A stretch of 22,745 nucleotides of DNA. It comes from a virus. The notes under the pieces were generated by a model. It saw only the letters and a program-made list of their open reading frames with translations, ran no database searches and was not told the DNA's origin. The translations under genes were made by a program, and so were the position numbers. Below, in pieces: positions 9,165-11,618 of this stretch; position 1 is the stretch's first letter, and the number at the start of each line of letters is the position of its first letter. The DNA lies in the IMG/VR virus record IMGVR_UViG_3300008219_000113, positions 1-22,745 of that record; one strand, written 5' to 3'.

Positions 9165-9974
9165 CTATTTGAACAGTGTTAGCCTTGGATCCAACTGTTG
9201 TGTGTGTGCGTCTTGTGGTATGAAGAACAGATCCATGTCTCCTTTTTGGTGTACACCTTCGTGTTGTAATTGATTTCTATAACTGACAAAACTACCATCC
9301 AACCATCCTCTTTTTTTAGAACGACATCTATAACCTCTTGCTCTCAGCCAATCAATCATGTCTTCTGCCCAATAACCAAACTTGCGACACTGTGATGCCA
9401 CTATTTCCAATTGTATTATGGGTCGGTGTGCTTGTATGGTTTGTTCTGCACCCTGCAACACAAACCATTCATATCCTTCCACATCTATCTTGACGAAATC
9501 CACATCCTCTAAATGATAACTGTCCAGTGTGACACATTCAACTGTTTGTGTGTGTCTTTGCCTGGGCTTTGTTCTGTTGGGCCGGTTTTCCAAATGATTG
9601 TGTCCTCCATTTTTCCAATGTATAACCATCTGTGTGGTTTTGGCAGTTTCTGCCAGTGCTTGAGTGTGCAGTGTCGCATTTTTTACATCATTGTCTCGCA
9701 CTGTCAAATGCCACAATCGCTGTGCCAGTTGGGTTGGTTCCCAACATTCTACATAACTGAAACGTTCAGCATAATGAATGGCATTACAGGCATTGTTGCT
9801 ACCTATGTCCAAACATCGTCTAAATTTTTGAATGTGTTGTTGTGCAAACAACCAATTGGCTCTTTGGTATTGTCCCACACTCAATCTCTGTTTGTAAAGT
9901 TTGTCTCCTGCGTCAACCCAATAGGTGCGTCCATTACGGCTGTGTATGGCTTCAATTTCTGTGTGCGGCATCAT
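9165..9974 (-). CDS. FkbM-family SAM-dependent methyltransferase, 269 aa
   Basis: Rossmann-fold methyltransferase of the FkbM type, which usually O-methylates sugars or other small acceptors. Counting from the ATG at 9974, the SAM-binding motif CLDIGSNNA lies near residues 54-62, an acidic ECWEP end of strand 2 near 77-81, and the family signature KIDVEGYEW near 162-170. The length is usual for the family. No Shine-Dalgarno precedes any candidate start (TTG 9980, ATG 9974, ATG 9971). Instead TTTAAATATTG runs into the start, which suggests a leaderless or near-leaderless message. It is probably accessory cargo that alters host or virion glycans; the acceptor is unknown. It diverges from the plus-strand RNA region at 10003-10644. 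Confidence 0.85.
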   Translation of the reverse strand: MMPHTEIEAIHSRNGRTYWVDAGDKLYKQRLSVGQYQRANWLFAQQHIQKFRRCLDIGSNNACNAIHYAERFSYVECWEPTQLAQRLWHLTVRDNDVKNATLHTQALAETAKTTQMVIHWKNGGHNHLENRPNRTKPRQRHTQTVECVTLDSYHLEDVDFVKIDVEGYEWFVLQGAEQTIQAHRPIIQLEIVASQCRKFGYWAEDMIDWLRARGYRCRSKKRGWLDGSFVSYRNQLQHEGVHQKGDMDLFFIPQDAHTQQLDPRLTLFK

Positions 9975-10002
9975 CTGCAATATTTAAATTGTATGCTATC
10001 AC

Positions 10003-10644
10003 ACAGTGCTAGTTGTGGTGGCTAAACCCACTGTAACATACCGTTTAACAGCACACAGACGTCTCTACAAGCATCAAACCACATTTAGGTTGCTCTTTGT
10101 ACACATCCACATATATACTTGTGAAAATAGGCACAAATAGGCAAATAAAATTTCCCACAAGGCAACATAGCATCTCAACAAATTAAGAAAAGTTGAACAC
10201 ACCCTTTGATTGTGTAGGTCGGATGCAACCCAAACTGTTGGGCAAGGACAGTATAAAAAAATAGGCAGTTATGCTGATCGTTTTTGTGAAGACTATATGG
10301 CGATTGGATGTTGTACACTTGGACTTTAAGTCAATCATGGTTCACCTGATGTGTGCAATAATGGAAGTCAGACACTGGAAACAGTACGTAAGATATGCAA
10401 ACCCTTTACGTTGCAAAGTTGGATGTAGTGAACCTAACTAGGAAGATTTTACTAAAAGTCTTCTTGTGACTGAAGAGAAGAAAGACAATTGACGCAAGTC
10501 AATTGTGAGTGAGTGCAAACTCACTCCTTGTATACCCACACACACTCTACTAGTAAATACTGATGGAGACAGTTTTGTGAAATGGCCCAGTCTATTTGTT
10601 GCCATACATCCTAACGCAGTCATTTCATCCCCTTAACTGTCTCC
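10003..10644 (+). ncRNA. Candidate large structured noncoding RNA, about 640 nt
   Basis: No gene fits here, yet complementary segments follow one another almost without gaps. Junction 1: GCATC/GATGC (10170-10174, 10222-10226) encloses TCAAC/GTTGA (10175-10179, 10192-10196) and ACACA/TGTGT (10197-10201, 10211-10215). A CCCAA/TTGGG hairpin follows (10229-10242). Junction 2: TTGTACAC/GTGTGCAA (10311-10318, 10351-10358) encloses hairpins 10319-10334 and 10335-10349. Then come ACTG-GAAA-CAGT (10374-10385), a possible pseudoknot (10386-10415), a bulged hairpin (10417-10439), a 9-bp hairpin (10442-10463), two adjacent GCAA-capped hairpins (10485-10506, 10507-10526) and a nested helix (10565-10584 with 10621-10644). 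GNRA loops and G-U pairs fit the plus strand. The ends are approximate. The promoter is unclear; TTGCTC-18-TATACT ending near 10118 is weak. It could be a giant phage RNA such as GOLLD or ROOL, or new. Confidence 0.6.
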
Positions 10645-10708
10645 ACTTTATTTCCCACACACTTTACCAACATTTAAATAACTGTGACCTGCAGGGGTCA
10701 GTGAGCAT

Positions 10709-10978
10709 ATGGATAAAAACACATTCGAAGAGAGACTGCGAGAACTGGGCATTGAATTGCGTCCACCCTCCACTCATGGACCAAGGATAGGCATGCGTAG
10801 GGTCATATTCCCCCAGCACAAGGTTTGCCGCAGGACAGAAAAAACAACCACAGAGACACTGCAAAACAAGTGCAAGTGTGGCAAGAACTATTTCTATTCA
10901 CAGACACACATAATGATGCGTTGTGATGGTTGTAAAATAAGGCGATACATAGACTTTAAATTTCCAAAAAGGCGTTAA
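10709..10978 (+). CDS. Small zinc-ribbon protein, 89 aa
   Basis: The only plausible plus-strand protein gene. It is basic, with an N-terminal helix (MDKNTFEERLRELGIEL) and a C-terminal half carrying CKCGKNYFYSQ, then MMRCDGCKIRRYI, so CxC and CxxC pairs about 14 residues apart. This resembles a zinc ribbon for nucleic acid or protein binding. The isolated Cys40 lies outside. The start is uncertain but reasonable: AGGGG lies 11 nt before the ATG, and TTTAAATA (10673-10680) 28 nt before it. It follows the candidate structured RNA on the same strand by 64 bp and converges on the gene ending at 11041. It might bind that RNA or act as a transcription factor; both are guesses. Confidence 0.6.
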   Translation: MDKNTFEERLRELGIELRPPSTHGPRIGMRRVIFPQHKVCRRTEKTTTETLQNKCKCGKNYFYSQTHIMMRCDGCKIRRYIDFKFPKRR

Positions 10979-11016
10979 ATATTTGTGGTTTTATATCTTC
11001 TCGATTATGACCAGTG

Positions 11017-11049
11017 AAGCACTGATTCATGGATTGTGTGTCAGTGCTT
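11017..11049. terminator. Hairpin between convergent genes
   Basis: AAGCACTGA (11017-11025) and TCAGTGCTT (11041-11049) form a perfect 9-bp stem with a 15-nt loop. The right arm includes the stop codon of the minus-strand gene. No strong T-run follows on either strand (only TTT on plus), so it may be a weak bidirectional terminator or an RNA end-protecting hairpin between the convergent plus gene (ends 10978) and minus gene (ends 11041). Confidence 0.45.
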
Positions 11050-11586
11050 TGCCAAATAATCTTTTGGTGTTTGCCACTTGACGTGTGTGCCCAATATGTC
11101 CCTAGGTTTGTCGTGCACCACTGTTATTGGCACCAATTGTGCCAGCGTGTCAAACAATTTAAATTTTTCTCTGTTGTGTTTGGTAGGCGGAAACTTTCTC
11201 CAAGTGTATTGTTTGTCATACATTGAATTGTTTGTAATGGTCCAGTCACAGCCCAACAGATCTATTTCAGTCGCACCCAATTGCACAGCCAATACCAAAG
11301 CCATTGTGCCAGAGCAGTAACCATTTATGTTGCGTTGCTTTTCATAGCTCACTGTGGAAGTGAAAGTTTTCCAAGGGCCTTGTGTATACAATCTTCTAGT
11401 CCAGTACTCCACGTCTTTACTATAATTTTTGCCTATTGCACGTATGGTTGGTAGATCATAAGCACACACATGATGCACAGTTCTGTTGTTGGATATAAAA
11501 TTGCAACCTATCTCCAAAGGTTGTGGGGGAATATTGTAAAATTGTTCGACCGATGGACCGTTCCACCAAACTGTTGCTTTTGCCAT
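11041..11586 (-). CDS. DUF115/sialyltransferase-like Rossmann protein, 181 aa
   Basis: Resembles small phage relatives of the DUF115 (MptE-like) and GT42 sialyltransferase folds. It opens with VWWNGPSVEQF, then EIGCNFI and VCAYDLPTIRAIGK. The most telling stretch is the nucleotide-sugar-side motif SGTMALVLAVQLGATEIDLLGCDW (about residues 92-115, from codon position), matching the family pattern sG-mAl-lAi-lGa-eI-LlG-D. It is shorter than true glycosyltransferases, so it may be a core domain only. Likely cargo that modifies or masks surface glycans, in line with the FkbM gene. The ATG has no Shine-Dalgarno; ATTTAAATATTG stands 5 nt upstream as in the FkbM gene. Substrate unknown. Confidence 0.6.
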   Translation of the reverse strand: MAKATVWWNGPSVEQFYNIPPQPLEIGCNFISNNRTVHHVCAYDLPTIRAIGKNYSKDVEYWTRRLYTQGPWKTFTSTVSYEKQRNINGYCSGTMALVLAVQLGATEIDLLGCDWTITNNSMYDKQYTWRKFPPTKHNREKFKLFDTLAQLVPITVVHDKPRDILGTHVKWQTPKDYLAKH

Positions 11587-11618
11587 AACAATATTTAAAT
11601 GTTAAATGTAAAAGGTGA

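Follow-up and report, generated by a model that had tools for sequence, protein, structure and literature searches.

Positions 10126–10527 on the plus strand of a viral DNA record almost certainly make up a gene for an RNA that encodes no protein. The record (IMGVR_UViG_3300008219_000113) was analysed over 22,745 bases, and this whole stretch is called the window, or W, below. The RNA lies in a 728-base gap between two genes, an FkbM methyltransferase gene on the minus strand to the left (9165–9980) and a small Cys-rich ORF of 89 amino acids on the plus strand to the right (10709–10978). Two compact three-way junctions picked out by a sequence-only reading sit inside this gap; they are not separate motifs, both being parts of one RNA of about 400 nt with two pseudoknots. 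The decisive evidence for the structure is comparative, and the alignments described below establish a real, folded RNA, the predicted fold being kept while the sequence changes.

Along the RNA the elements run in the order leader, P1/P3/P3b, P4, P5, P6 with P6a and P6b, P7, P8, P9 and the 3′ hairpins, all on the plus strand. The leader (10126–10166) holds three AGGC repeats, recognised by repeat counts and comparison of upstream stretches. Junction 1 (10170–10226) comprises P1 (10170–10174/10222–10226) and P3 (10197–10201/10211–10215), which are supported by covariation, and the arm P2 (10175–10179/10192–10196), which the swap test shows not to be conserved. Hairpin P3b (10217–10230) pairs GGT at 10217–10219 with ACC at 10228–10230, and the 3′ strand of P1 lies inside its loop, forming the first pseudoknot. 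The hairpins P4 (10234–10252, ACTGT/ACAGT, with the conserved loop TRGGCNNGG) and P5 (10274–10307, CTGATCG/CGATTGG) covary, as does junction 2 (10311–10358), which is built from P6 (10311–10318/10351–10358), P6a (10322–10325/10329–10332) and P6b (10335–10337/10347–10349). In the second pseudoknot (PK, 10339–10434), also supported by covariation, the loop of P6b (GGTTCAC, 10339–10345) pairs with a strand downstream of P8 (GTGAACC, 10428–10434). Both junctions are therefore tied by pseudoknots. Hairpin P7 (10375–10384, CTG-GAAA-CAG), whose loop is GARA in the clade of W, has both-side changes at all three of its pairs in the core alignment A4. P8 (10386–10411, ACGTAA/TTACGT) covaries and has the nearly invariant loop GATATGCAAACCC, this is followed by hairpin P9 (10442–10463, GAAGATTT/AAGTCTTC), which rests on the swap test. 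The unpaired core formed by GATATGCAAACCC, TRGGCNNGGAC and GGAAGT is nearly invariant. Two back-to-back hairpins (10485–10506 and 10507–10526) pair at the 3′ end. The tetraloops of these two hairpins change together by lineage (GCAA/GCAA, GTTA/GTTA, GTCA/GCCA), and they do not obviously pair with each other.

The helices read from W were scored on A3, a MAFFT alignment of 23 sequences made without structure. The helix set was picked after reading the sequences, a selection that the swap and slide controls address in part; over its 61 pairs, 89.1% of 1352 cells are paired and 40 pairs show changes on both sides. None of 500 shuffles reached the observed pairing and double changes, and sliding the partners by 1–3 columns gave 34–44% paired cells and 13–20 double-change pairs. 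In A4 92.9% of cells are paired, with double changes at 32 of 43 pairs. In the swap test, an independent check, 5′ strands are matched with 3′ strands taken from other lineages, in 20000 reassignments. No reassignment was as good as the true pairing for P1, P3, P4, P5, P6 or P8, nor for P3b, which was first proposed by RNAalifold; 5/20000 were as good for PK and 28/20000 for P9. The arm P2, expected to hold, was rejected, as 14683 of the 20000 do as well. Among lineages P1 occurs as GCATC/GATGC, GTAAC/GTTAC, ACAGC/GCTGT and GTTAC/GTAAC, and P6 as TTGTACAC/GTGTGCAA and TCAATAAC/GTTATTGA. PK is found as GGTTCAC/GTGAACC, GGTTAAC/GTTAACC, GGTCCAC/GTGGACC, GCACAC/GTGTGC and ACAACG/CGTTGT.

The strands of the two junctions lie where the sequence-only reading had placed them: GCATC 10170–10174, TCAAC 10175–10179, GTTGA 10192–10196, ACACA 10197–10201, TGTGT 10211–10215 and GATGC 10222–10226 in junction 1, and TTGTACAC 10311–10318 and GTGTGCAA 10351–10358 in junction 2, enclosing hairpins at 10319–10334 and 10335–10349. 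The wording for junction 1 needs one correction: two of its three joints are free of linkers, but at the third six bases (AGGTCG) separate TGTGT from GATGC. The geometry was defined after seeing this junction, as three-way with exact 5-bp arms, two joints without linker and a third of at most six bases; it occurs once on the plus strand of 9985–10708, and of 2000 dinucleotide shuffles 3 contain it. That the junctions are RNA is supported by compensatory changes in homologues, the check which had been proposed. The outer helix and both hairpins of junction 2 are conserved across homologues and this junction survives in full; in junction 1 covariation is strong for the outer helix and for ACACA/TGTGT, whereas the arm TCAAC/GTTGA lacks conservation.

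The folding energy of 10170–10358 is ordinary on both strands (z = +0.70 on the plus strand and +1.00 on the minus), and the plus strand of the whole intergenic region gives z = −2.46 from only 20 shuffles, a value to which no weight is given. Junction 2 is present in the minimum-energy and centroid structures of 10170–10358, but junction 1 only partly, the mean pairing probability of P1 being 0.11 in this fold compared with 0.69 in that of 10126–10527. Absence from minimum-energy folds had been named as grounds for refuting the junctions; it would have been a misleading criterion, the energies are ordinary and the structure is real. A folding-energy screen would have overlooked this RNA; a by-eye search for junctions found it.

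The gene corresponds to a conserved alignment block. Its 5′ end is placed at about 10126 because of the AGGC repeats and a −10-like hexamer, TATACT (10114–10119, plus strand), and its 3′ end at about 10527 because the last hairpin ends there. The homologous TATACT in L016 is preceded by TTGACA-N18; in W the −35 is poor, only TATACT is kept, and a promoter scan found no promoter-like site at 10114–10119. Sigma-70-like promoters lie close upstream of the RNA in L063 (12/12), L064, L016 and L060 (11/12). Strong promoter-like sites are thus present in four of 19 lineages, and several lineages have no good match. In the 19 upstream stretches AGGC was observed 54 times against 3.4 expected, with none in their reverse complement, and spaced AGGCA..AGGC pairs number 23 in leaders versus 14 elsewhere in 341 kb. 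The repeats have a spacing near 10 bases and are missing from L063. The two 3′ hairpins are likely to be a terminator or to give end protection; no classic U run follows them on the plus strand of W, and a terminator scan of W gave nothing decisive.

Protein and DNA-pattern scans of a viral collection revealed the RNA in 27 further viral contigs, representing 18 distinct lineages, with one copy per carrier record. The first sign came from L004/L016, which shares about 77% identity with W in the tail protein and keeps 10146–10527, the identity of the RNA being far above that of the flanking non-coding DNA. In L022 the RNA is present in surroundings quite unlike those of W. Homologues were found by conserved-core patterns, so the conservation of the core is partly selection; in a final scan with only the P4 region as pattern the P8 core was still seen, with changes. 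Pattern matches in L023, L024, L027–L029, L032–L034, L036–L051, L054, L056–L059 and L070 were discarded as coding or chance. Blastn gave no convincing homologue in GenBank phages (with the W, L026, L060 and L061 regions) or in plasmids (with the L004 region). Exact-pattern scans of bacterial genomes found none, or chance matches in coding sequence. A covariance model detected no copy among 398 Pseudomonadota genomes, which is not proof of absence, as no positive genome is known. No long reading frame common to the RNA loci was found.

Within the complex phage RNAs of unassigned role, this RNA of about 400 nt is, by its sequence and predicted fold, a new family. Rfam 15 has no match in W above gathering score, and scans with permissive E-values, run on the region and on eight divergent carriers, gave only chance matches far below gathering scores. 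IMES-1 and IMES-2 (RF02034, RF02035) are marine environmental RNAs; the present RNA is likewise marine and known from environmental sequence, but their models, of 191 and 141 positions, match nothing in W, a weak difference as control genomes gave no match either. The permissive all-family scan also found no IMES-1 or IMES-2 match in the region. No description of this RNA was found in the open-access literature. The anti-sRNAs of enteric prophages are phage-encoded, short and base-pairing (PMC4104026). The present RNA is similarly an accessory phage RNA gene, but its defining feature is a pseudoknotted core that is conserved.

Carriers of the RNA belong to different phage types, labelled by marker genes on partial contigs. 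W, L016, L060, L068 and L072 are siphophages (J-like tail protein), and L025/L026, L030/L035, L052, L062 and L065 are T7-like podophages (terminase phrog_38 or relatives). The two types are interleaved in the RNA tree. Neighbouring genes lie on either strand and vary between carriers, and no protein family is shared by every RNA locus. The RNA is absent from L003, a sister contig of W, and from the relatives HTVC112P, HTVC111P and DSL-LC06. L003 shares with W the tail, sialyltransferase-like and 89-aa genes and has other ORFs at the place of the RNA. The tree, the context and the absence from relatives together show the predicted RNA gene to be an accessory gene ('moron') passed between unrelated marine phages.

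Several further features were observed near the RNA. In L003 (9458–11118), compared with W (10550–11600), the block of sialyltransferase-like and 89-aa genes is turned around with respect to the tail gene. Six siphophage-type lineages have the sialyltransferase-like gene (11044–11586 in W, minus strand) close to the RNA, on one strand or the other; the further lineages include L060, L068, L071 and L072. Small Cys-rich ORFs are found beside the RNA in W, L016, L030, L065 and L071, and on the opposite strand in L022 and L060. They share an N-terminal look (F, [IL], LG) and paired cysteines, and judging from these sequences may be one fast-changing family; the protein of W (10709–10978) has no Pfam or PHROG match.

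The structural genes of W (capsid, tape measure and lambda J-like tail protein) are on the minus strand. The capsid protein is 46–50% identical to those of the Pelagibacter phages HTVC026P, HTVC111P, HTVC112P and HTVC202P, and W is for this reason most likely a marine siphophage. Naming a host from the capsid relatives was rejected, as the identity of the major capsid protein to Pelagibacter phages and the lake phage DSL-LC06 (43–50%) is too distant. Within the FkbM methyltransferase gene, 9372–9503 has a second copy, about 70% similar, nearby in the relatives L012, L011 and L013, in which this gene looks duplicated. The sequence TATTTAAAT at 9981–9989 has its complement at 10672–10680, flanking both ends of the RNA-bearing gap; the pair is possibly due to chance, being short and self-complementary. 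Positions 10564–10645 (plus strand), 3′ of the RNA, contain a perfect 11-bp inverted repeat with a 60-base loop, and a piece 75% similar is found elsewhere, inverted, at L003:11022–11118.

The best overall explanation, to which we give about an even chance, is a self-contained accessory RNA gene acting in trans on the infected cell. Action in trans is by itself probable; host-directed binding or titration is a more tentative proposal. An RNA of about 400 bases would be read from its own start; its fold, shown by comparison, is a compact core with two pseudoknots, followed by two terminal hairpins. Loops of the core that are unpaired and conserved, together with the row of AGGC motifs in the leader, would then attach to a protein or RNA of the host, and this partner may be sequestered or redirected during takeover or counter-defence. 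The poor −35 in W, the lineages lacking a promoter match and the missing U run count against this explanation, and the AGGC repeats, absent from L063, might instead be a DNA element. A CsrA sponge, suggested by many GGA motifs, was dropped because most GGA are not conserved. There is room for a cis role, because a small same-strand ORF follows 21–234 bases past the RNA block in seven lineages (W, L016, L030, L065, L066, L071, L072), several of these ORFs being alike in their Cys pairs and their F..[IL]..LG pattern near the N terminus. A cis-acting, riboswitch-like leader or partner RNA of the downstream Cys-rich gene is nevertheless unlikely: the next gene is on the opposite strand in L022, L025, L052, L055, L060, L061 and L067, so that carriers have no constant same-strand gene downstream, two 3′ hairpins stand between RNA and gene, and L003 has the protein without the RNA.

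With their spacing near 10 bases, the AGGC repeats resemble binding-site arrays. For the whole locus, an origin or packaging site with RNA-like hairpins, or chance pairing, is the least probable reading of all; strand-specific conservation of the core and long-range pseudoknots fit RNA, and chance pairing is excluded by controlled covariation at 40 pairs. The packaging RNA of phi29 is 174 nt and, like the present RNA, phage-encoded and folded. A packaging role would suit the position between tail fibre and terminase genes in T7-like phages, but it is very improbable, because phi29 RNA is tied to one motor and the carriers here have unrelated packaging types, the sister phage has no RNA, and in W the RNA is far from head genes. 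The nearly invariant unpaired core inside a pseudoknotted fold is what makes a ribozyme conceivable; with no match to any ribozyme or intron of Rfam at E values as high as 5–10 and no flanking exons, we regard this as quite improbable. The RNAs ROOL and GOLLD, of prophages and phages, are large, pseudoknotted and phage-encoded, have no assigned function or constant protein partner, and assemble into homo-oligomeric cages (PMC12286853). The present RNA resembles them in being pseudoknotted, phage-encoded and without a constant protein partner, and by analogy the fold itself might be the product, a self-assembling particle, which could be combined with the trans-acting explanation. This is about as doubtful as the cis leader, as the RNA has about 400 nt rather than 659 or more than 800, a different fold, and lies away from tRNA genes (none in W or in 21 carrier loci). 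Covariance models of GOLLD and ROOL in the Rfam library, where they are expected because their study took its profiles from Rfam (PMC12286853), have no match in W, the region or the eight divergent carriers.

Few large structured RNAs have been described from phages, and their roles are still open. We tentatively suggest that this RNA may stand for a new class among complex phage RNAs, an RNA-only device directed at the host and shared by siphophages and T7-like podophages of the ocean, whose nearly invariant core is possibly catalytic or protein-capturing. At about 400 nt it is small enough to make and probe, with a well-resolved covariation model, and its exchange between unrelated ocean phages and absence from a sister phage provide a clean comparison of gain and loss.
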